From Polynucleobacter kasalickyi (GTDB taxonomy: Bacteria > Pseudomonadota > Gammaproteobacteria > Burkholderiales > Burkholderiaceae): DNA of 64,000 nucleotides. Under the pieces are notes generated by a model that saw only the letters and a list, made by a program, of their open reading frames with translations, did not search any database and was not told the DNA's origin. The position numbers and the translations under genes are program-made. Below are positions 46,383 through 61,030 of the stretch, one piece after another; the stretch's first letter is position 1, and every line of letters starts with the position of its first letter. Location: NCBI RefSeq assembly GCF_900176405.1, contig NZ_FWXJ01000001.1:186001-250000 (forward strand). The letters are read 5' to 3'.

Positions 46383-46885
46383 GCTGCAAAATTCCAGTCA
46401 GGGTGTTGATTTAAAAACGGAATGAGTCCACCCATCGAAATGATTTTTAACACTTCTTTTGGTAATAAGCTTGCCTGAATGGTTTGATGGTGATTCGTTT
46501 GCACGATACCAGTTTGTAAATCAATCGTTAGTTCTGCGCCGTCAAGGATTTGACTGGTGTCACATTCAAGGATCGCGAGCCCATTGTTAATCGCATTTCT
46601 GAAAAACTGACGTCCAAATGACGGAGCTAAGATACAGCGAACTTGCATCAGGTGCAATATGGCGATAGCTTGTTCGCGTGAAGAGTTAATGCCAAAGTGT
46701 TCGCCGGCGATAATAATGCCTCCTTGAGCAAGCTTTAATCGCCCACTAAACCCTGAGCTTAACTTTTCAAATGCAATCGTACTGATAAATTGACTATCTT
46801 TACCAGGAGCGTACTTACTAGAACAATGAATATCGGTATTGACATCATCCCCTAATTGAAAAGCCTGTCCATGAATGATGCTCAT
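46379..46885 (-). CDS. LeuD-like small subunit of an aconitase-superfamily hydratase
   Basis: 168 residues, the swivelling domain: GQAFQLGDDVNTDIH, IIIAGEHFGINSSREQA and SFGRQFFRNAINNGLAIL. The start at 46885 forms an ATGA overlap with the LeuC-like stop and has GGAGG upstream. It pairs with the large subunit to make a two-subunit (archaeal-type) isopropylmalate/homoaconitate/dimethylmaleate-type hydratase. The absence of leuA and leuB and the lyase downstream argue against leucine synthesis. Confidence 0.88.
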   Translation of the reverse strand: MSIIHGQAFQLGDDVNTDIHCSSKYAPGKDSQFISTIAFEKLSSGFSGRLKLAQGGIIIAGEHFGINSSREQAIAILHLMQVRCILAPSFGRQFFRNAINNGLAILECDTSQILDGAELTIDLQTGIVQTNHHQTIQASLLPKEVLKIISMGGLIPFLNQHPDWNFAA

Positions 46886-48165
46886 GCTACCGCCCTCCAT
46901 GAACCACCTTCAATGGTTCGCGGATCGGTAATAAAACCGGTTAGGGCAGACGCTGCCACTGTGGCGGCAGATCCTAGCCAAATGTCTGCATTAGGATTCA
47001 CTAAGCGACCTTTAAAATTTCTATTGGCAGTGGAGATGACCACCTCATGATCGCCAGGGACTAAATGATTCGTAATGCCTACGCAAGTTCCACAACCAGC
47101 AGCTTCGAAAGAGGCACCGGCCATCGTGAAAATTTCAATTAATCCTTCTCGTAGCGCGGCTAAATAAATCTGCCGAGAAGCAGGGGTAATAATCATGCGA
47201 ACTCCCGCGGCAATTTTTTTGCCTTTTAAAATAGCTGCGGCTTGACGAATATCATCCAAACGACCATTGGTGCAGGTACCAATTAACGCAAACTGAATTT
47301 TTTGTTGAACAATTTCATTGACGCCAACAATGTCATCCACAGCATGTTTTCTAGCAACCTGAGGAACTAAGTCGCTGATATTCATTCGAAATTCTTGCTC
47401 GTAGTGTGCATCGGCATCGGCAAACACCGGTTGCGGTGTTTGAGCACCATGGGCGTGTAACCAATCAATCGTTTTTTGATCAGCTTCTAAAATAGCCGCT
47501 TTGGCACCTAACTCGGCTGCATGGTTGCACAGAGTCATCCGGTCATCAATATCCATCGCACTCACTGCACTACCAACGTATTCAATCGCTTTGTAATTGA
47601 GACCCTCGGCTTTAAATTTGCCAAGCATCTGTAAAGTGATATCTTTGGCCCATACTCCAGGTTGAAGTTGGCCATCTAAGTGGACTTTGACGGTTTCTGG
47701 CGCTCTTAACCAGATTTTGCCGCTAGCCATTACACCGACGACATCGCTACCTTCAATGCCAGTACCAAAAGCGTTAAAAGCGCCATACGTCGTGGAGTGC
47801 GTGTCAGTACCAACGATTAAATTACCGCTGGTGAGATGACCACCTTCGGGTAATACTTGGTGACAAATGCCATCACCAATATCGTATAAGTGAGTGCCAG
47901 CTTGCTTTGAAAAGTTGCGCATTAATTGATGCGTTTGGGCAGCTTCTTCATGGGGTGGTGGTGAATAGTGATCTAACACCATTGCCGTGTTTTTAGCAAA
48001 GTTTAAAGAGGGCTTATCTAATTTTTTCATGACTTGCATGGCATTGCCAGCACGCGTATCCGTGACCATGGCAAAGTCCACATTGCAAACAACGACGTCA
48101 CCAGCTTTTACTTGTGAAACTCCGGCATGCGATGCTAAGATTTTTTCAGAGATTGTTGAACCCAT
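46882..48165 (-). CDS. LeuC-like large subunit of an aconitase-superfamily hydratase
   Basis: 427 residues. [4Fe-4S] cysteines are in GTCTNGRLDD and GCGTCVG; GTDTHSTTYGAFNAFGTGIEGSD is the conserved family block. The size is the compact archaeal-type LeuC rather than the roughly 470-residue bacterial LeuC. Together with the small subunit it would hydrate or isomerise an unsaturated dicarboxylate. Two Bug receptors precede it, the nearest 20 bases upstream, suggesting the substrate is imported. Dimethylmaleate hydratase (DmdAB) is one attractive match; a methylaconitate-type substrate is another. Confidence 0.88.
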   Translation of the reverse strand: MGSTISEKILASHAGVSQVKAGDVVVCNVDFAMVTDTRAGNAMQVMKKLDKPSLNFAKNTAMVLDHYSPPPHEEAAQTHQLMRNFSKQAGTHLYDIGDGICHQVLPEGGHLTSGNLIVGTDTHSTTYGAFNAFGTGIEGSDVVGVMASGKIWLRAPETVKVHLDGQLQPGVWAKDITLQMLGKFKAEGLNYKAIEYVGSAVSAMDIDDRMTLCNHAAELGAKAAILEADQKTIDWLHAHGAQTPQPVFADADAHYEQEFRMNISDLVPQVARKHAVDDIVGVNEIVQQKIQFALIGTCTNGRLDDIRQAAAILKGKKIAAGVRMIITPASRQIYLAALREGLIEIFTMAGASFEAAGCGTCVGITNHLVPGDHEVVISTANRNFKGRLVNPNADIWLGSAATVAASALTGFITDPRTIEGGSWRAVA

Positions 48166-48185
48166 ATGGCTACCTTCTTAAATGA

Positions 48186-49163
48186 TTATTTTTCCCACTG
48201 AATATTACTGATAATTTTGCCCCAGGTCTCAAACTCTGACTTGGTGTAGGCGGCTAACTCATTGGGCGTTGAAGGCGCAGGTTCTACACCAATATTCCTC
48301 AATTTTTCAGCAGTGCTAGGATCTTTCAGGGTGGCGACTAATGCTTGATTTAATTTGTTTTGTATGTCGGTTGGTATTTTTGCTGGGCCAATAAAAGCGT
48401 ACCAGTTCTGTGCTTGATAGCCAGGGTAGCCTTGTTCAGCAACCGTGGGAACAGTCGGTAAAGAATCAGCTCGTTTTACTCCGGAAGTCGCTAAGGCGCG
48501 GAGTTTACCAGCCTCAATGAAAGGAATGGCAGTGGGCGTACTAGCAAAAATTGCCACGATATTTCCACCTAATAAATCATTCATCGCCGGGCCACCACCC
48601 TTATAGTTCACATGCTGAGCATTCATGCCAGAACGAACTTTTAATAATTCACCCGCCAGATGTCCAGTGCTACCTTGCCCCGATGAACCAAAAGTAATAA
48701 AACTACCCGCTTTCTTACCTGCATCGACAAAGTCTTTAAAAGTTTTAATCGGTGAATCAGCCTTCACCACAAGCACGTTTGGAAACACGACTCCTTGCGA
48801 TAAAAATGTAAAGTCTTTTAAAGGATTGAAATTGGTACCACCTGGCATATGAGGATTAATGGCTAGGGAACCAATGGTGGTGAGCGCAATGTTGTATCCG
48901 TCAGGCGGGAGCTTCATTAAATAGTCACTGGCAAGGTTACCCCCGGCACCAGGCTTATTATCAATAATGACGGTTTGCCCAAGAATTTCCGACAACTTGG
49001 GTACCAATACTCTTGCGGTCGTATCCGAGCCGCCACCTGCAGCAAAACCAATAATAATGTGAACTGGCTTATTCGGAAAATTTTTAGCATCTTGGGCATT
49101 GCCCAAGGTGGGTAAGAGACTCAGTGTGGCGATAACTAGGCTAGAAATACTAACTTTTTGCAT
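48186..49163 (-). CDS. Bug/TctC family receptor, second copy
   Basis: 325 residues with a signal peptide ending in LGNAQD and Bug landmarks NFPNKPVHIIIGFAAGGGSDTTARVL, VIIDNKPGAGGN, NYKGGGPAMNDLLGGN and VPTVAEQGYPGY. A 20-base gap to the LeuC-like gene puts it in the hydratase-lyase operon, so it probably binds the acid that operon degrades. No TctAB is present. Confidence 0.92.
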   Translation of the reverse strand: MQKVSISSLVIATLSLLPTLGNAQDAKNFPNKPVHIIIGFAAGGGSDTTARVLVPKLSEILGQTVIIDNKPGAGGNLASDYLMKLPPDGYNIALTTIGSLAINPHMPGGTNFNPLKDFTFLSQGVVFPNVLVVKADSPIKTFKDFVDAGKKAGSFITFGSSGQGSTGHLAGELLKVRSGMNAQHVNYKGGGPAMNDLLGGNIVAIFASTPTAIPFIEAGKLRALATSGVKRADSLPTVPTVAEQGYPGYQAQNWYAFIGPAKIPTDIQNKLNQALVATLKDPSTAEKLRNIGVEPAPSTPNELAAYTKSEFETWGKIISNIQWEK

Positions 49164-49209
49164 AGAAAAACCTTTCAGAATCTTTTGCGATTAATTGTTA
49201 TTTCAGGAC

Positions 49210-50178
49210 TTAATTGAGCTTGATATTGGATTTTTTCGCAATATCTTTCCAACGACCAATATCGACTAAGAATAATTTTTTAAAATCGTCTTGATTAAGA
49301 GGAGCCATATTGATGCCAGCCTTTGTAAAGCTATCTTTTACACTTTGTTGGCTTAATACCTTTAAGGTTGCTTCACTAATTTTTTTCTGCATTTCAATTG
49401 GTGTGCTTGCAGGCATAAAAATACCTTGCCAGAGAGTAATCTCATAATCTTTCACACCAGATTCTTGCATCGTTGGGACTTCTGGTGTTCCTGAAAAACG
49501 TTCTTTACTCGTTACTGCAAGGGCGCGCATCTTGCCACCGCGATATTGAGCTAGGCCCACCGGCATGCCGGCAAAATAATAATCAATTTGGCCACCAATG
49601 GTATCGGTGGCAGCTGGTGCGCCACCTTTATAAGGGACGTGAATCGTATTTAAACCAGCAAGCACATTAAACATTTCACCAGCCATATGATCTGAGTTAC
49701 CAATGCCTGAAGAAGCGTAAGTTAACTTACCTGGCTCTTTTTTTGCAGCGGCAATAATTTCCCCCACATTTTTATAAGGCGAATTCGCACCAACAACTAA
49801 AATATGTGGTGTAGCAGAAAATCCCACAATTGGAATTAAGTCTTTAGTGCCATTAAAGGGTAAGGCTGTATTGAGAGCAACACTAATCGCAAGACCATTT
49901 TGTGCAATCAAGATGGTGCTACCATCACCAGCACTTTTTGCTGTTGCATCGGCGGCAATATTTCCCGCTGCACCGCCACGATTTTCTACGATAACATTTT
50001 GTTTGAGTTCATCACCTAAGGCTTGACTCACAATTCTTGCTGCAATATCCGTAGAACTTCCTGCGACATAGCCGACATACGCTCTAATTGTTTTATTGTC
50101 ATTAGCTTGTGCTTGAATACTGAAGCCTGAGCTGATGGAGATGGCGAGTAAAAACCGATTAATCAATTGACGAGTCAT
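49210..50178 (-). CDS. Bug/TctC family receptor, third copy
   Basis: 322 residues, GGAGATATAC before the ATG. The signal peptide is FLLAISISSGFSIQAQA, followed by YVGYVAGSSTDIAARIVSQALGDELKQN, VIVENRGGAAGNIAAD, VPYKGGAPAATDTIGGQ and GTPEVPTMQESG. The common P-F-x-x-G-G motif reads YVAGSSTD here, a divergent ligand loop. It is 46 bases upstream of the second receptor, so two different Bugs would serve one operon. Confidence 0.9.
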   Translation of the reverse strand: MTRQLINRFLLAISISSGFSIQAQANDNKTIRAYVGYVAGSSTDIAARIVSQALGDELKQNVIVENRGGAAGNIAADATAKSAGDGSTILIAQNGLAISVALNTALPFNGTKDLIPIVGFSATPHILVVGANSPYKNVGEIIAAAKKEPGKLTYASSGIGNSDHMAGEMFNVLAGLNTIHVPYKGGAPAATDTIGGQIDYYFAGMPVGLAQYRGGKMRALAVTSKERFSGTPEVPTMQESGVKDYEITLWQGIFMPASTPIEMQKKISEATLKVLSQQSVKDSFTKAGINMAPLNQDDFKKLFLVDIGRWKDIAKKSNIKLN

Positions 50179-50280
50179 GTATATCTCCAGTTAAAAGTCT
50201 TATGTTGTAATCACTGAGTGATTCTTATCCCCAACAGTCCAAAGACGTCGAAGTAATTTATATACTTATTCTAATCGCAA

Positions 50281-50305
50281 AACACCTGCCAATTGAGCAA
50301 GTGTT
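50281..50305 (-). terminator. Probable terminator of the Ldh-Bug operon
   Basis: On the minus strand a 9-bp stem (AACACTTGC with GCAGGTGTT, one G-T pair) with a 7-base loop is followed by four T. It lies about 25 bases past the stop of the fourth Bug gene. Confidence 0.5.
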
Positions 50306-50328
50306 CGCGGGTTTATTTTCTTGAAAAA

Positions 50329-51318
50329 TTAATCTAAGCTAATCCCACCATCTTTGATGATTTTTCTCATGCGATTAAAGCCATCTTTATTTGCCTGATT
50401 ATATGCAGCTTGACCGGTTGGCACGAGTTCAAAGCCTTGAGCGATTATTTGCTCTTTCATTTTTGGGTCTTTGAGAACTTGTGTAATAGCATCGTTGAGC
50501 TTGTTGATCACGTCATTGGGGGTGCCTTTGGGTGCAACAAGTGCTGCCCATGCCATTAATTCATAGCCAGGTACTGTCTCAGCGACAGTTGGTACATCCG
50601 GTAACAATAGTGATCTTTTTGAGCTAGTAATCGCAATCGCTTTGAGTTTGCCTGCTTTAATATGGGGTAACACAACCGCTAAGGCACTAATCATCATCGG
50701 TACTTGACCTGCCATTACATCCGTGACTGGAGCCGCAGCTCCCTTGTAGGGGATGTGAACTAAAGGAGCGCCAGTCATCTGTCGCAACATTTCCATCCCA
50801 ATATGCTGGGGTGAACCGTTGCCACCCGAGGCATAGTCCAGCTTTCCGGGGTTTGCTTTAGCGTATTCAATCAGTTGTTTAATGTTGTTCGGCTTAAAGT
50901 TAGGATTCGCCACTAAGACGAAAGTAATACCAGCGATTTGCGAAATTCCAGTAAAGCTAGTGAGTGGGTCATAGTCCACCTTTTTATATAGGTTCGGGAC
51001 CATATTTAAGATGCTGTCATTAAAGGCGCCAAGGACGTAACCATCCGGGTTTGCTTGGGCAACTTTATTGGCACCAATCAAACCAGCACCACCGGTAATA
51101 TTTTCGATAATCATCGACTGCCCTAAGACTTCAGACATCTTTTGACTGAACGGACGCATCAGAACATCTACCGCAGATCCTGCTTGTAATGGCATCGTTA
51201 CCTGAATCGTGTGGTTCGGGTAATTCGATTGGGCAAATACCATCCCTGACAAGATACTACTCGTCAAAAGTAAGTTTTGTAATATCTGAGTTGACCTACG
51301 ATAGAGTTTTGTCTGCAT
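50329..51318 (-). CDS. Bug/TctC family receptor, fourth copy
   Basis: 329 residues from ATG 51318 (MQTKLYRRS) with AAGGA four bases upstream; a longer in-frame start would run into the upstream gene and adds no signal peptide. The signal is NLLLTSSILSGMVFAQ. Bug landmarks are NHTIQVTMPLQAGSAVDVLMRPF, IIENITGGAGLIG, NPDGYVLG, IPYKGAAAPVTDVMAGQVP and LPDVPTVAETVPGY. It starts one base after the Ldh-family stop, so it belongs to the sugar-acid operon under the GntR regulator. Confidence 0.92.
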   Translation of the reverse strand: MQTKLYRRSTQILQNLLLTSSILSGMVFAQSNYPNHTIQVTMPLQAGSAVDVLMRPFSQKMSEVLGQSMIIENITGGAGLIGANKVAQANPDGYVLGAFNDSILNMVPNLYKKVDYDPLTSFTGISQIAGITFVLVANPNFKPNNIKQLIEYAKANPGKLDYASGGNGSPQHIGMEMLRQMTGAPLVHIPYKGAAAPVTDVMAGQVPMMISALAVVLPHIKAGKLKAIAITSSKRSLLLPDVPTVAETVPGYELMAWAALVAPKGTPNDVINKLNDAITQVLKDPKMKEQIIAQGFELVPTGQAAYNQANKDGFNRMRKIIKDGGISLD

Positions 51319-51319
51319 T

Positions 51320-52375
51320 TTATCCTTCCAACGGCGCAACGCCAGCCAGTTTGGCTGTTTCTTGTAAAGCTTTAAACAAGTTATCTGGAATCGGAATGCC
51401 AGCAGCGGTCCGTTTTGCTTTTGATTTAGCAATGCCGTCACCGGGGACTCGAATTTCGCTCACTCCTGGCAGTTTTTGTGAACCTTTGATTTCAGTCACC
51501 AAGCGAGTTGCATCTTGGACAAGATGTTCCGTACCACCCAAGAAATCAGGATTGATCGCCACGATCGTTTGACCAGTATTGGTGACCGCTTTGGAATCCG
51601 CATTAAAGTCGACTAACTCAGAACCGACCGCTGCACCGTTCATACAGCCTGCTAACAAAGCAATCATCAGGGAAAGACCGTAACCTTTGTATTCACCAAT
51701 AGGTACTAACATCCCCTCATGGGATCTATTCGGATCGGTGAGTGGATTCCCTTGTTTATCGATCATCCAACCAACCGGCATTTCTTCACCTTGTTGCGCT
51801 TTCATTTTGACTTTGCCATAAGCTGCAACCGTTGTCGCCATGTCAAGGAGAACGGGTGGTTTGCCTGCACCCATTGGCACTGAAATAGCGATTGGATTAG
51901 TGGAAAGTAACATATCAATACCACCCCAAGGTGCCATATGATTAGCACTGCCAACCGCTAGATACATCCCGACTAAACCAGCTTCTGCGACTAAGTTCGT
52001 ATACATTGAGCCGGCTCCAGCATGGTTGCCATAGCAACAGCCAACCCAACCAATGCCGTTTTTCTTAGCTTTTTCGATCGCTAACTCGGTACAGCGATGC
52101 ATAATTAAATGGCCCATCGCGTTATCGCCATGTAAGAGAGCAATGGACGGCGCATCTTTTAATAACTTCATCTGTGGATGGAGGTTAATGCCACCTTCTA
52201 CAATCCGTTTTGAGTATTGGGGTAAGCGAAAAATACCATGGCCATCAGCACCTGATAAATCGGCTGTGACCATTAATTCTGCGATGATTTTTGCATCGGC
52301 TGCAGGCATACCAAGTCCTACATAGACGCGTGTGATAAATTCTTCTGCTTGTTGTGCTGTTATTGTGTGACTCAT
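51320..52375 (-). CDS. Ldh-family (malate/L-lactate/ureidoglycolate-type) dehydrogenase
   Basis: 351 residues of the Ldh_2 family, unrelated to classical lactate dehydrogenase. Visible are ADLSGADGHGIFRLPQY (catalytic histidine region), GWVGCCYGNHAGAGSMY, MAPWGGIDMLLSTNPIAISVP and the NAD contact GEYKGYGLSLMIALLAG. Members oxidise 2-hydroxy acids or reduce 2-keto acids. It overlaps the enolase-superfamily gene by four bases and precedes a Bug receptor, so its substrate is probably the hydroxy or keto acid made by that dehydratase. Confidence 0.87.
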   Translation of the reverse strand: MSHTITAQQAEEFITRVYVGLGMPAADAKIIAELMVTADLSGADGHGIFRLPQYSKRIVEGGINLHPQMKLLKDAPSIALLHGDNAMGHLIMHRCTELAIEKAKKNGIGWVGCCYGNHAGAGSMYTNLVAEAGLVGMYLAVGSANHMAPWGGIDMLLSTNPIAISVPMGAGKPPVLLDMATTVAAYGKVKMKAQQGEEMPVGWMIDKQGNPLTDPNRSHEGMLVPIGEYKGYGLSLMIALLAGCMNGAAVGSELVDFNADSKAVTNTGQTIVAINPDFLGGTEHLVQDATRLVTEIKGSQKLPGVSEIRVPGDGIAKSKAKRTAAGIPIPDNLFKALQETAKLAGVAPLEG

Positions 52376-53505
52376 TTAATTTTTACCCATGATTGTCCGT
52401 TGCTATATTTTTTTATTGCTACTTCATCAAAATGAAAGCCTAAGCCAGGAGTTTGATGCAGCATTAAATCGCCGTTGTTAAAGTCTAACTGACGGCTAAT
52501 TAATCTTCTAAAGTTTAATACTTGATCATCTGTAAAGTATTCTACAAATCTTGCATTGGGGGTTGCTGCCACTAGTGGTGCGTGTAAGTCATGAAACCAG
52601 TGTGGACTTACCGTGACCCCTTTGGCACTTGCATAAGCTGCAATCCTGCGCCATTCGCTAATGCCACCACAAACTGCAGCATCGGTTTGTAGTATTTCGC
52701 AACCCTGCGCTTCAATCAACTCCCGAAAGCGCCAACGACCTACTTCAATTTCTCCGGTGGCAACCGTAATAGACGTTCTAGCAGCTAGTCTGGCGTGTAA
52801 GTCGATGGCATCTGGAGAGAAAGGCTCCTCAATCCAATAAGGGTTATATTGCTCAAAGCGTTTGATATATTCCATCGCTGTTGGTAAGTCTGCCCAGGCA
52901 TTATTAGCATCCATTGTCACTAAAATATCTTCGCCGACGGCGTCTCTGACCGCTGCCAAGCGCTCTTCCTCTTGGGCTGGTGATAAGCGTCCGGTTTTCA
53001 TTTTGACGGCTTTAAAGCCAAGGGCAACATAGGCTTCCATCTCTTTCGCTAGCAAAGCTGGAGTTTTGCCGTCAACATAATAACCACCACTTGCGTATGC
53101 TGGCACTTTATCTAAAGTGACGGCTCCTAAATATTCATGCAACGGTAATTTTGCCATTTGGGCATTTAGATCCCACATGGCATTATCTAAAATGGAAATA
53201 CCGCGCATGACCGAGCCTGAACGACCTTGCAGAATTGCTTCAGCATACATTTCTTGCCATAAGCCTTCAGTGCGGTGACTGTTCTGACCAATTAGTTTTG
53301 GCGCTAATAACTCTTCAACAGCAACGCGTGCGATAGATCCCGCACCACTGCCAACATAACAAAAACCAATACCTTCAACACCGACGCTATTTCTAACTTT
53401 GACCAAACAATAATGTCGTTCCGTAACTGTTCTGGTAGAAAAGGAAGTTACTTTATCTAAAGGTACTGCAACATTCATCACTTCAATGGACTCAATGATC
53501 GACAT
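52372..53505 (-). CDS. Mandelate racemase/muconate-lactonising family (enolase superfamily) enzyme
   Basis: 377 residues with GGAGACC before the ATG. Active-site elements are AVKMKTGR (K-x-K), VTMDANNAW, WIEEPFSPD, VATGEIEVGRWRF and the C-terminal VSPHWFHDLHAPL with the acid-base histidine. A KxK lysine plus a C-terminal His-Asp type dyad is typical of the mandelate racemase subgroup, which includes many sugar-acid dehydratases. A dehydratase of an aldonic or aldaric acid fits the lactonase, dehydrogenase and receptor around it. Confidence 0.87.
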   Translation of the reverse strand: MSIIESIEVMNVAVPLDKVTSFSTRTVTERHYCLVKVRNSVGVEGIGFCYVGSGAGSIARVAVEELLAPKLIGQNSHRTEGLWQEMYAEAILQGRSGSVMRGISILDNAMWDLNAQMAKLPLHEYLGAVTLDKVPAYASGGYYVDGKTPALLAKEMEAYVALGFKAVKMKTGRLSPAQEEERLAAVRDAVGEDILVTMDANNAWADLPTAMEYIKRFEQYNPYWIEEPFSPDAIDLHARLAARTSITVATGEIEVGRWRFRELIEAQGCEILQTDAAVCGGISEWRRIAAYASAKGVTVSPHWFHDLHAPLVAATPNARFVEYFTDDQVLNFRRLISRQLDFNNGDLMLHQTPGLGFHFDEVAIKKYSNGQSWVKIK

Positions 53506-54318: not shown

Positions 54319-55242
54319 TTAACTTAAACCAAATAATTTTTTACCTGGAACAGGTAATTTTGCTTTCAAAATATCACCTGACATGGACTCAGTAATGTAC
54401 AAATCTTGACCATCAGGACTACAAGCGATATTGGCTAAATGATGATGATGTTTGTTTTCTGAGTAAATGAGGTGAGTTGGTAACATGTTGTTATCAAAGC
54501 GCCAAACGCCAACCCCTAAATGACAAACTAACAAACCATTTTCAGAGTCCATTTCAATACCATCAGGGCCAGCAGCGCCACCGGACAATTGAATCGCAAC
54601 GCCAGTCTTAGATACTGAACCATCTGCCATTAAAGGCAAACGCCAAATTTGTTGGGCACGAGTTACAGCCACAAATACATGCTTTTCTGAAGTGTTTAGA
54701 GTAATACCATTTGGACTTGGGACATTAATTGCTAAACGATCTAATTGACCACTTGCACTTAATCTGAAAACACGACCAGTTGGATCTGCAATACCAGTTT
54801 GACCTTGGTCAGTGAAATATAAATCGCCATTGGATGCGAAATGTAAATCGTTTAAGCCTTTAAAAGACTCACTGTACATAGAGCCAAGAATCGTCGTGAT
54901 GTTGCCAGTTTTGGTATCTAATTCTAATAAGCCCATTTTGTAATCGCAGATAAATGCACGACCATCTTTATGGAACTTTAAGCCATTAGGCCAGCCATCA
55001 TACTGAGTAATTAACTCCCACTCACCCTTGGTAGAAATGCGGAAAATACGTCCATAAGGAATATCGGTAAACCACAAGTTACCTTCTCTATCAAAAGAGG
55101 GACCTTCTAAGAAACATTCGATTTCAGCACCTTGACGATTTGGGATAGCCCAAGAAGTTGGTTTAGCATTACGAAACTTTGCCGGCATGGACATAAAAAC
55201 TTCAGTTTTAATGAGCTCAACGGGCTTAAATGGATTGATCAT
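54319..55242 (-). CDS. SMP-30/gluconolactonase family protein
   Basis: 307 residues from ATG 55242 (AGGAG five bases upstream; an earlier in-frame ATG lacks this). A six-bladed propeller with GPSFDREGNLWFTDIPYGRIFRIS, NGLKFHKDGRAFICDYKMGLLELD, GLNDLHFASNGDLYFTDQG and PNGITLNTSEKHVFVAVT, then GPDGIEMDSENGLLVCHLG. The Glu/Asn/Asp residues of these blades bind Ca or Zn. The family hydrolyses sugar lactones. It fits a sugar-acid pathway with the dehydratase and dehydrogenase. Its promoter faces the CoA-ester operon. Confidence 0.9.
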   Translation of the reverse strand: MINPFKPVELIKTEVFMSMPAKFRNAKPTSWAIPNRQGAEIECFLEGPSFDREGNLWFTDIPYGRIFRISTKGEWELITQYDGWPNGLKFHKDGRAFICDYKMGLLELDTKTGNITTILGSMYSESFKGLNDLHFASNGDLYFTDQGQTGIADPTGRVFRLSASGQLDRLAINVPSPNGITLNTSEKHVFVAVTRAQQIWRLPLMADGSVSKTGVAIQLSGGAAGPDGIEMDSENGLLVCHLGVGVWRFDNNMLPTHLIYSENKHHHHLANIACSPDGQDLYITESMSGDILKAKLPVPGKKLFGLS

Positions 55243-55252
55243 TTTTTCTCCT

Positions 55253-55270
55253 AACTTGTTGTGACAGGTT
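55253..55270 (-). promoter_or_regulatory. 18-bp palindromic operator, SMP-30 side
   Basis: AACTTGTTGTGACAGGTT is an inverted repeat (AACTTGT / ACAGGTT, one mismatch, spacer of four) just upstream of the SMP-30 ribosome binding site. It is the imperfect twin of the site at 55381. Confidence 0.6.
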
Positions 55271-55380
55271 AACAATAATATTTTATGCTTAATAAATTAA
55301 ATTTTGGAATTCAACTTAAGCGATAGTATATACTTGTTTAATTGTTAAATTACTTATATTAATTTAAAATTAATTAATGT

Positions 55381-55398
55381 AACTTGTTATTACAAGTT
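55381..55398 (+). promoter_or_regulatory. 18-bp palindromic operator, CoA-ester operon side
   Basis: AACTTGTTATTACAAGTT has perfect 7-bp arms and a 4-base spacer, 21 bases before the 3-hydroxyacyl-CoA dehydrogenase start. ACTTGT/ACAAGT half-sites are of the type bound by HutC-like GntR regulators, and such a regulator is encoded at 53532-54278. A further half-site lies near 55330. Confidence 0.65.
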
Positions 55399-56379: not shown

Positions 56380-57258
56380 ATGTCAGTAGATCAAGGTAAG
56401 AACTTTAAAGATATTTTGTTTGAGGTAAAAGATCAGGTAGCTTGGATTACGATCAATCGCCCACGTGTACTCAACGCATTCAGAGAGCAAACTTTGGATG
56501 AAATGATTAGTGCTGTTATGGCAACTAGAGAAGACCCATCAATCGCTTGTATCGTATTCCGTGGTGCTGGTGATCGTGCTTTCTCAGCAGGCGGTGACTT
56601 TTATGCCATGAAACGTTTAACGTTTACAAATGGTTCTATGTGGAATGATCGTATGCTCGGTTTAGCAATGGCTATCCGTGGCGTAACTATTCCTGTGATC
56701 GCTATGGTGAATGGTTGGTGTGTTGGTGGTGGACACGAATTAGCACTCTGGTGTGATTTGGTGATTGCATCCGAAAAATCTGTTTTAGGTCAAACAGGTG
56801 CAAAAGTTGGCGCATGTCCAACTGTTGGTGCTACACAGTATTTGCCAAGAATCGTTGGCGAGCGTATCGCAAGAGAAATGATTTTCTTAGCAAAACGTTT
56901 TGATGCAAAAGAGGCAGAGCGCATTGGTTTGATCAACAAGTGTGTTCCAGAAGAGACGTTAATGGAGGAGACATTAGCTTGGTGTGAAAACATTAAGAGC
57001 AATAGTTCACAAACTATCCGCATGACGAAGAAGAGTCTGAACTTTGAATCAGACCAGTTGTATGCTTCATGGCAGCACGGTATGGAATTGTTGGCTTATG
57101 TCTGGGGCTCTGAGGAGTGCTTAGAAGGTATGAATGCATTCTTGGAAGGTCGTAAGCCTGACTTCCAAAAATTCCGTTTAGCGAACAAAGCAGCGTTAGC
57201 TGATTACATGGATGGATTCCACAAGAATCTTAATGCACCTCCAGATATGCGTGATTAA
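56380..57258 (+). CDS. Crotonase-superfamily protein, MenB/BadI-like
   Basis: 292 residues with AGGAGAAGG before the ATG. VAWITINRPRVLNAFREQTLDEM, RGAGDRAFSAGGDF (oxyanion hole) and VGGGHELALWCD (one acid) are crotonase-fold features. The C-terminal part (IAREMIFLAKRFDAKEAERIGLINKCVP and AFLEGRKPDFQKF) is closest in pattern to MenB and BadI, which close or open carbon rings. The usual second acid is missing: the loop reads GQTGAKVGACPTVGATQYL, with Gly where hydratases have Glu and Pro where MenB/BadI have Asp. The reaction may therefore differ from plain hydration. Confidence 0.85.
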   Translation: MSVDQGKNFKDILFEVKDQVAWITINRPRVLNAFREQTLDEMISAVMATREDPSIACIVFRGAGDRAFSAGGDFYAMKRLTFTNGSMWNDRMLGLAMAIRGVTIPVIAMVNGWCVGGGHELALWCDLVIASEKSVLGQTGAKVGACPTVGATQYLPRIVGERIAREMIFLAKRFDAKEAERIGLINKCVPEETLMEETLAWCENIKSNSSQTIRMTKKSLNFESDQLYASWQHGMELLAYVWGSEECLEGMNAFLEGRKPDFQKFRLANKAALADYMDGFHKNLNAPPDMRD

Positions 57259-57261
57259 AAA

Positions 57262-58491
57262 ATGACTACTACTTCTACTACTTCACAACACCAACTTCCA
57301 GAAGGTGCTTTGACAGGCTTTAAGGTGCTTGATTTAAGTCGCGTACTTGCGGGTCCTTGGTGTGGAATGCTACTCGGTGATTTGGGGGCCGAAGTAGTAA
57401 AAGTTGAATCTCCAGGCTCGGGTGATGACACCCGAGGTTGGGGGCCACCCTTCTTAGAAGGCGAGTCTGCTTATTTTTTAGGCGCAAATAGAAACAAGTC
57501 AGGTTTGAGTATTCATTTTGGTTCTGCTGAAGGCAAAGCACTTTTAGCAAAGCTTATTCCACAGTTTGATGTGGTGGTAGAAAACTTCAAAAATGGCACC
57601 TTAGAAAAATGGGGCTTTGATCAACAGTGGTTTGAGACCAACGCACCAAAAGTGGTTCGGTGCTCAATTACTGGCTATGGTACCTATGGACCACTTTCTC
57701 ACTTACCCGGTTATGACTTTATTTTGCAAGCCGAATCCGGTTTAATGAGTATTTGTGGCGAAGAGGGTGGTGTACCCAGTAAATATGGTGTTGCGATTGT
57801 TGATTTGGCGACCGGCATGATGGCCTGTAATGCTGTGCAAGCGGCATTATTAGCGAGATACAGAACGGGTAAAGGGCAGCATGTCGAAGTGAGTTTGTTT
57901 GACACTTCAACTGCCTTACTGGCGAATGTGGGCAGTAGTCACTTGGCCACGGGTAAAGATGCCAGAAGATTTGGCAACGGCCATCCAACGATTGTTCCTT
58001 ACACGACCTTTCCAGCAGCGGACAAGATGATTGCTTTAGCTGTTGGTAATGATGGGCAGTTTGCAAAATTAGCAGAAGTTTTAGGTCATCCTGAATGGGC
58101 ACAGGATGAACGATTCAGGACGAATACCGCCAGAGTTCAACATCGTGAAATTGTTGATGGGATGGTCGCAGAGTCTCTGAAAACGATGCAATCAAAAGAC
58201 ATTATCACCACCTTAAGAAAAAATGGCATACCAGTAGGTGGGGTTAACACCGTCGCTGAAGCATTAAGTTCTGAACATGCCAAAGTCAAGGAAATGGTGG
58301 TAGACATTGCGCATGAAAAAATTGGCACCTTCAAAAGTCTTGGTACGCCATTGAAGATGCATCAAACACCAACCAGTGTGAGAATGGCGCCACCCATGTT
58401 GGGTCAACACACGGATGAACTGTTGAAAAAATACTTACAACTCAGTGATGCGCAACTCGATGAGTTAAAAGAAAAAAAGATTATTCAGTGA
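57262..58491 (+). CDS. CaiB/BaiF class III CoA-transferase, second copy
   Basis: 409 residues, starting three bases after the crotonase stop. The N-terminal FKVLDLSRVLAGPWCGMLLGDLGAEVVKVESPGSGDDTRGWGPP and ANRNKSGLSIHF are standard. The catalytic aspartate is in PGYDFILQAESGLMSICG, followed by SLFDTSTALLANVGSSHL. It activates the acid of this operon by CoA transfer. It is clearly divergent in wording from the copy at 14688, so they serve different substrates. Confidence 0.88.
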   Translation: MTTTSTTSQHQLPEGALTGFKVLDLSRVLAGPWCGMLLGDLGAEVVKVESPGSGDDTRGWGPPFLEGESAYFLGANRNKSGLSIHFGSAEGKALLAKLIPQFDVVVENFKNGTLEKWGFDQQWFETNAPKVVRCSITGYGTYGPLSHLPGYDFILQAESGLMSICGEEGGVPSKYGVAIVDLATGMMACNAVQAALLARYRTGKGQHVEVSLFDTSTALLANVGSSHLATGKDARRFGNGHPTIVPYTTFPAADKMIALAVGNDGQFAKLAEVLGHPEWAQDERFRTNTARVQHREIVDGMVAESLKTMQSKDIITTLRKNGIPVGGVNTVAEALSSEHAKVKEMVVDIAHEKIGTFKSLGTPLKMHQTPTSVRMAPPMLGQHTDELLKKYLQLSDAQLDELKEKKIIQ

Positions 58492-58530
58492 TACTCTGTA
58501 TTCGTATAAGTTCATGAAATTGATGGAAAA

Positions 58531-58568
58531 AACGGTTTAAATTTAGTCGATTTAAACCGTTTAATACT
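58531..58568 (+). terminator. Terminator of the CoA-ester operon
   Basis: A perfect 12-bp stem (58531-58542 with 58550-58561) and 7-base loop; a run of T begins seven bases after it. It lies 40 bases past the CoA-transferase stop. Confidence 0.7.
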
Positions 58569-60055: not shown

Positions 60056-61030
60056 TTAATCAATTTTGCCAATTGCTTTGAGTAAAGTGAGCATTCTTTT
60101 GCCATCTTCTTGGGCGAACTTTTCAAAGTCTGGCGCATCACGATAGTCCATGACGATATTCTGTTTTTGAAATCCAGAAATCAATTGGGGTGATTTCACT
60201 GCATCTTTCATAGCATTTCTAAGTGTTTGTACAATTGGAGCTGGCGTGCCTTTAGGCGCATAGATGCCTGCCCAAATATAGTACTGCGCATCATAACCAG
60301 CTTCTCTGTAAGAAGGAACATCTGGAAATGCCGTAATCCGCTTTGCACTAGAAACCGCTAAGGGGCGAACTTTACCCGATGCAATTTGCGCCGCTGCTAC
60401 GCCAGGTGCTGCCGTAGTAAAGTCAACTTGACCACCAAGTAGAGCCAATAATGAAGGACCACCACCACCAAATGGTACTTGTGTAAATTTCACACCTGCT
60501 TGATAGGCAAGCATTTCGACCGAAAGATGAATCGGACCAAAATTTCCAGAAGAAGAATAATTATATTTTCCAGGATCTGCCTTCGCTGCTTTAATTAAGT
60601 CTTCAAGGGTTTTGAAAGGAGATTCTGTTTTCACAAGAATAATCATTGGATCACTTGAGAGTAAAGCAATCGGTTCAAGTTGATTAATTTCGTATTGTGG
60701 TTTTCTACCAGAAATTCTTTCTGCCTCTGGGTGAACTACAACCGAAGAAAGTGACATGGCTAATGTATAGCCATCGGGTTTTGACTTTACTACATAAGCC
60801 GTTCCTAAAGCGCCACCGATGCCAGGTTTATTTTGCACCACAATTGCTTGCTTTAGAACGGTGCCTAAAGGTTCGGCTAAAATCCGTGCGTTTAAGTCGG
60901 CTGCGCCACCAGGTGGGTTCGCCACAATTAAATTAATTGGCGAACTTGGATAAGGGTCTTCAGCCCTGACGGTAAAAGCACATAGCAAGTTTAAAAAAAG
61001 AATAAATGCAATCGTTAGGGATTTTTTCAT
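60056..61030 (-). CDS. Bug/TctC family receptor, fifth copy
   Basis: 324 residues. Signal LTIAFILFLNLLCAFTVRA, then YPSSPINLIVANPPGGAADLNARILAEPLG, VVQNKPGIGGALG, KPDGYTLAMS, VPFGGGGPSLLALLGGQVDF and FPDVPSYREAGYD. It overlaps the Gfo/Idh/MocA gene by four bases, putting it in the second sugar-acid-type operon with an enolase-superfamily enzyme. No TctAB pair is nearby. Confidence 0.92.
   Translation of the reverse strand: MKKSLTIAFILFLNLLCAFTVRAEDPYPSSPINLIVANPPGGAADLNARILAEPLGTVLKQAIVVQNKPGIGGALGTAYVVKSKPDGYTLAMSLSSVVVHPEAERISGRKPQYEINQLEPIALLSSDPMIILVKTESPFKTLEDLIKAAKADPGKYNYSSSGNFGPIHLSVEMLAYQAGVKFTQVPFGGGGPSLLALLGGQVDFTTAAPGVAAAQIASGKVRPLAVSSAKRITAFPDVPSYREAGYDAQYYIWAGIYAPKGTPAPIVQTLRNAMKDAVKSPQLISGFQKQNIVMDYRDAPDFEKFAQEDGKRMLTLLKAIGKID

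Follow-up and report, generated by a model that had tools for sequence, protein, structure and literature searches.

The window, by which we mean the whole 64,000-nucleotide stretch of Polynucleobacter kasalickyi DNA that was analysed, contains a pair of divergent genes, one coding for a lactonase-family protein (SMP-30) and the other for a dehydrogenase with the fold of 3-hydroxyacyl-CoA dehydrogenases (HCDH). The 177-bp gap between them holds two palindromes whose centres lie 128 bp apart, which confirms the coordinates and spacing of the twin 18-mers described in the original prediction. Two predicted operons run outwards from this gap (Table 1).

Table 1. Genes and candidate regulatory features of the divergon and its surroundings, by position in the window.
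Feature	Position	Strand	Remarks
Three TctC-type solute receptors and an aconitase-family gene	46882-51441	-	assigned to the operon from spacing only
Ldh_2-family (malate/L-lactate dehydrogenase-like) gene	51320-52375	-	overlaps the end of the MR/MLE-family gene
Mandelate racemase/muconate lactonizing (MR/MLE) family dehydratase-like gene	52372-53505	-	26 bp behind REG
REG: GntR helix-turn-helix + UTRA, HutC subfamily, 248 aa	53532-54278	-	second gene of the left SMP-30 operon; PF00392, PF07702
SMP-30/SGL lactonase-family gene, 307 aa	54319-55242	-	first gene of the left operon; ATG ends at 55242; PF08450, 3.5e-31
Operator 1 (candidate)	55253-55270	.	AACTTGTTGTGACAGGTT; 10 bp upstream of the SMP-30 ATG; abuts an AGGAG RBS-like sequence; register conserved genus-wide
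Operator 2 (candidate)	55381-55398	.	AACTTGTTATTACAAGTT; 21 bp upstream of the HCDH ATG; register conserved
HCDH: 3-hydroxyacyl-CoA-dehydrogenase-fold dehydrogenase, 308 aa	55420-56346	+	first gene of the right operon
ECH: crotonase-family (MenB/BadI-like, below cut-offs) enzyme	56380-57258	+	33 bp behind HCDH
CAIB: type III CoA-transferase	57262-58491	+	3 bp behind ECH
Terminator-like stem of 14 pairs, only 3 of them G-C, with T-rich tail	58530-58562	+	behind CAIB; 1 found vs 0.2 in shuffles

Orthologues of SMP-30 are 80-99% identical in 96 other genomes of the genus; an alternative 318-aa frame for this gene, starting at TTG, would run through site 1. Further along the left operon, the product of the MR/MLE-family gene has L-talarate/galactarate dehydratases as its best relatives (219 bits against a cut-off of 500). 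Genes of this talarate/galactarate-dehydratase-like kind occur in the window and at two other loci of our genus survey (L113 and L196), all below curated cut-offs, and by homology they point to a sugar-acid pathway. Four TctC-type receptor genes lie within 13 kb (48186-51441 and 60056-61030), and no membrane subunit for such receptors was found among the 16 frames scanned. At the head of the right operon, the best solved relative of HCDH is 5-formyl-3-hydroxy-2-methylpyridine 4-carboxylate 5-dehydrogenase (1.5e-45), followed by 3-hydroxybutyryl-CoA dehydrogenase (1.2e-31), and its best curated model, below cut-off, is again a pyridine-carboxylate dehydrogenase and no CoA-ester enzyme. A CoA substrate is therefore not certain, and the label 'CoA-ester' that had been given to the right operon is not one that HCDH sustains. 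The stem behind CAIB marks a possible end of this operon.

REG follows SMP-30 on the same strand at a distance of 40 bp and combines an N-terminal GntR winged helix (PF00392, 64.2 bits; cut-off 27) with a C-terminal UTRA domain (PF07702, 64.5 bits; cut-off 23.8), bearing out the claim that a HutC-like regulator is encoded next to the sites. A search of genome contigs with REG gave six loci, three of them close (92-94%), with Polynucleobacter rarus as a near relative (94%). Outside the genus, a sample of 299 genomes from the family gave no closer matches than 34% identity for REG and 54% for SMP-30.

Both palindromes, of the form ACTTGT-N4-ACAAGT, have GT and AC four bases apart and so fit, as predicted, the GT-N4-AC form given for operators of the HutC subfamily in passages of Suvorova, Korostelev and Gelfand (2015; PMC4494728); at many other loci of the genus, AT or AA replaces GT in at least one half-site. 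Operator 1 differs from AACTTGTNNNNACAAGTT at one position and has 6 of 7 arm positions paired; operator 2 matches without a mismatch and has 7 of 7 paired (arm base pairs were counted by eye). When the genome-wide search that had been proposed was carried out at one mismatch or fewer, the 2.91-Mb genome yielded three places, two of which are the window pair; by a hand calculation (about 3 x 256/2.91e6), the chance that two of three places would fall 128 bp apart is less than 1 in 1000. The third place (C28:18264, one mismatch) covers codons 11-16 of a 392-aa frame that looks peptidase-like by eye, with a divergent frame nearby, and was set aside as coding, although a later true start of that frame would turn it into upstream DNA. 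Looser counting was at or below background and uninformative: at up to three mismatches to the motif the window has 6 matches where 5.4 are expected, and at up to two the whole genome has 16, fewer than for the reversed control (31). Likewise, the CG-centred form ACTTRTNCGNAYAAGT was found, at one mismatch or fewer, in 28 places in 14 Polynucleobacter genomes, against 38 for its reversed control. By our own count 18 of these 28 places fall in this divergon; the sole such place in the P. kasalickyi genome lies outside it, in a TctC-like frame, because the window operators lack the CG centre. That place (G000:C25:163439) is shared with G331 and was set aside, the surrounding frame reading by eye like a TctC receptor. 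Since the word alone is not enriched, it is position and conservation that carry the argument.

Across 70 aligned rows, mean pairwise identity is 0.87 and 0.82 in the arms of the two sites and 0.38 in the DNA between them, where a single 12-column stretch reaches 0.79. This stretch is a third conserved block, approximately ATTAAACCAT-AATTAATGAT, which in the intergenic regions of L093-L149 is present between the operators at most loci and which is absent from the window's clade; it perhaps represents promoter elements or the site of another factor. A promoter scan was at chance level, with 3 matches, every one on the plus strand, where 1.2 are expected, and no transcription start is claimed.

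The conservation of the sites was followed across 186 genomes of the genus, 89 of which carry relatives of REG (E <=1e-45) and 97 of which carry SMP-30 (E <=1e-100). The SMP-30 loci of 96 other genomes, a cut-off locus (L206) and the window made up 98 rows, with REG beside SMP-30 in 88 and absent from 10; the divergent neighbour is HCDH in 80 of the 88 and in 9 of the 10. Sites were scored as present at no more than 2 mismatches in 12 to ACTTRT-N4-AYAAGT, with the first 60 bp and the remaining upstream DNA each having to hold one, a motif defined on the same REG-containing loci in which it was counted. Among the 86 such rows with at least 140 bp upstream (L094, with 90 bp, and L206, with 8 bp, were dropped), 84 have both sites, and L201 and L145 have three mismatches in one of them; dinucleotide shuffles reach this score at rates of 2.5% in the first part and 4.7% in the second. 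None of the nine testable rows without REG keeps both sites; in the tenth, L189, the gap is 75 bp long and contains no site. The conservation in relatives that the original prediction had asked for is thus present wherever REG is, with few exceptions. On a tree of SMP-30 DNA the regulator state changes four times and the two-site state six times, and all four independent pairs, a small number, point in the same direction (sign test p 0.125, range 0.125-0.25). The ten genomes without REG hold no REG-like protein above 33% identity. Both sites also remain, 85-86 bp apart, in the six loci without an HCDH neighbour that have enough sequence (L091, L092, L097, L100, L103 and L196), the last of which has a galactarate-dehydratase-like gene in the place of HCDH.

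The individual losses are informative in several ways. It had been held that palindromes missing from relatives that keep the gene order would count against the prediction. Six relatives (L189-L194) are of just this kind, with Ldh_2-SMP-30 still facing HCDH and both sites absent, but REG has been lost from them too; TctC precedes Ldh_2-SMP-30 in the four of them in which the contig reaches that far (L189, L190, L191 and L193). L185-L187, which the SMP-30 tree places inside the window's own clade, lack REG between the dehydratase and SMP-30 genes, and their operators have decayed to differing degrees, a natural decay series in which L185 retains an intact site 2. Two further loci (L195 and L196), counted as containing REG, have the regulator frame in two pieces and both operators intact. 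Site loss is therefore not immediate, or else these frames are assembly errors; the two genes are either recent pseudogenes or products of such errors. Taken across the genus, the presence and loss of the sites track REG, and to the extent that sequence comparison can tell, both sites do appear tied to the neighbouring regulator as originally proposed.

How two sites might serve two operons can be judged from their spacing. In 78 HCDH loci (L095 and L138 were left out for mis-picked sites), the distance between the sites follows intergenic length with a slope of 0.99 (r 0.99), and each site keeps close to the start codon of its own gene, at 11-34 bp for site 1 and 6-24 bp for site 2. This is the pattern of a separate double-site divergon, and passages of PMC4494728 take a distance that rises with intergenic length to indicate that each operon has a site to itself. 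The original prediction had suggested looping as a possibility; in a model of this kind, two REG dimers would join into a tetramer across the 128-bp spacer and repress both operons cooperatively. Almost all loci have paired sites separated by 85-143 bp, which would suit such a complex, as would the observation that, at the best-fitting helical repeat of 10.8, six of the seven distance classes into which we grouped these 78 loci (86 to 142 bp) fall near whole turns, with p 0.015 had that repeat been fixed beforehand. With the repeat left free, however, phasing is not significant (p 0.14) and was rejected as proof of looping; at 10.5 there is none (p 0.73), the 114-bp class is out of phase, and the distance between sites tracks intergenic length instead of staying constant. 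We therefore regard looping as unlikely. With the sites anchored to their own genes and no significant phasing, it appears likeliest that the two operons are controlled separately, each by its own site.

We infer that both palindromes are very probably landing sites of the adjacent regulator, one per operon, and consider it likely, with good though not full confidence, that they act as two operators through which this single GntR/HutC-type protein represses both operons, one dimer per site. Each site would be bound by a REG dimer independently of the other, and as a start codon is only a few tens of bases away from each, binding would most likely obstruct the neighbouring promoter or the very beginning of the transcribed region. 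The left (SMP-30-REG-dehydratase-dehydrogenase) and right (HCDH-ECH-CAIB) operons would in this way share one repressor, which would let go of both when a metabolite of the pathway, probably a sugar acid or a lactone, bound its UTRA domain; lying in the left operon, REG would limit its own synthesis. The direction of control is not readable from sequence and the promoter scan is at chance level, so REG might be imagined to bind both sites and act mainly as an activator. Activators, however, seldom sit as near to start codons as the 6-34 bp seen here, SMP-30 and HCDH remain together after the loss of REG in nine loci, and the studied relative NagR is a repressor according to PMC4333415, all of which make activation quite improbable. 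It is more doubtful again that the sites belong to another regulator, with REG a mere passenger in the operon. The genome does encode two other REG-like proteins (31% and 26% identity), but site pair and REG have been lost jointly on four independent occasions while more distant GntR-like proteins persist, and the sites stay with REG and SMP-30 where HCDH is not the neighbour. Finally, the proximity of both palindromes to start codons, possibly inside leaders, would allow them to form hairpins in leader RNA instead of binding protein; given an operator-like word that keeps the same register at both genes and vanishes together with a DNA-binding protein, we give this reading almost no credence.

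REG and its operators can also be compared at the level of residues and bases. Residue 47 of REG is helix-turn-helix position 39, which passages of PMC4494728 link to the central bases of the operator. Grouped by residues 44 and 47, the fraction of half-sites with GT is 1.00 for Val/Gln (the window's clade, 11 rows), 0.95 for Ile/His (5 rows), 1.00 for Val/His (1 row), 0.14 for Ala/His (37 rows), 0.02 for Ser/His (28 rows) and 0.25 for Thr/His (2 rows). CG centres occur in a fraction of 0.45 of the operators in the Val/Gln rows, against 0.95-1.00 in the rest of these 84 rows. Each trait changes once on the tree, so this covariation was rejected as independent evidence; the changes, as single events, fit the assignment without adding to it independently.

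The genes flanking the sites are more closely associated than had been supposed. HCDH faces SMP-30 in 89 of the 98 loci, and in 75 of these 89 the fetched stretch contains no match to the crotonase or the CoA-transferase; ECH and CAIB (at least 60% identity) are found in the stretches fetched for 15 of the 98, namely the window, L075-L084, L185-L187 and L188, and they follow HCDH in all except L188, the nearest neighbour of the window's clade. The two operons thus do not plainly represent unrelated pathways, as had been thought. On gene order, the dehydrogenase-fold HCDH belongs with the lactonase, which narrows the pathway. As ECH-CAIB follows HCDH in one clade only, the 'CoA-ester operon' is best read as part of a sugar-acid-type divergon that has two extra genes there; gain in this clade and loss elsewhere both fit a regulator tree whose root lies between the clades.

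A tentative view of how this arose, to which we give less than even weight, is regulatory capture: the ECH/CAIB pair would have come to lie behind HCDH under the control of REG as the recognition helix of REG and its operators changed. In four other genomes of the genus (L150-L153), ECH and CAIB (90-92% and 69-72% identity) lie beside a paralogous GntR-type regulator (38-39% identity) and TctC genes. The helix would have moved to Val44 and Gln47 from the Ala/Ser/Thr and His of most orthologues (the paralogues have Ala44 and His47), and the operators of the window's clade would have acquired G while their CG centre ceased to be strict. For the paralogous regulator, operators were sought ahead of the crotonase gene, where a CG-centred word with two mismatches lies just upstream in two of the four loci (L152 and L153) and none is found in L150 or L151, a weak result that was rejected. 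These paralogues also have His46, a histidine that is unusual for the family at the position of the recognition-helix Arg46 of REG. Although its neighbours vary from locus to locus, the ECH protein keeps 87-98% identity between the window, L150-L153 and L188, which may reflect horizontal spread or strong constraint; REG is far less conserved, at 45-54% outside the clade.

The analysis gives good support to pairing this regulator with its candidate operators at a sugar-acid-like locus, so far uncharacterised, of a freshwater bacterial genus, and four independent regulator losses with operators at different stages of decay make a usable series for timing operator death. In a limited literature search (Polynucleobacter GntR, SMP-30/lactonase divergons and HutC sugar-acid regulons) no title concerned this regulon; Pnuc_0757 appears in a passage of PMC7522526 and is here unconnected to REG.

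Among known systems, the HutC histidine-utilization repressor is of the same subfamily, and its equivalog model (TIGR02018) is the best NCBIfam model listed for REG, but REG scores 92.1 bits against a cut-off of 220, none of 25 of the 27 listed models reaches its own cut-off, and the 16 frames identified in the neighbourhood include no hut gene. The GntR and UTRA build is shared with NagR/YvoA of Bacillus subtilis (and with DasR), the best solved relative of REG, at 65.5 bits only. The recognition arginine and wing glycine are kept, Arg48 of NagR as Arg46 in REG and all 85 aligned orthologues, and Gly69 as Gly67. NagR differs in reading two Gs with Arg38 and Arg48, according to passages of PMC4333415; at the Arg38 position REG has Ala, and its operator has T instead of G. 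The targets of REG differ from those of NagR, and no amino-sugar effector is therefore implied. The closest parallel lies in the HutC divergons described in parts of PMC4494728, although REG, its targets and the CG-centred ACTTRT variant are not named in the abstract, sections 5, 11 and 16 and further passages of that paper. There too, divergent operons have two palindromes between them, one close to each operon and both with GT and AC 4 bases apart in the half-sites, the regulator gene sits inside one of the operons, and the distance between sites rises with intergenic length, with a slope of 0.49 over that HutC set compared with about 1 here within one orthologue group. Judged by its sequence and by those parts of the paper, the system is a clean case of this known arrangement, the separate double-site divergon of HutC regulators.
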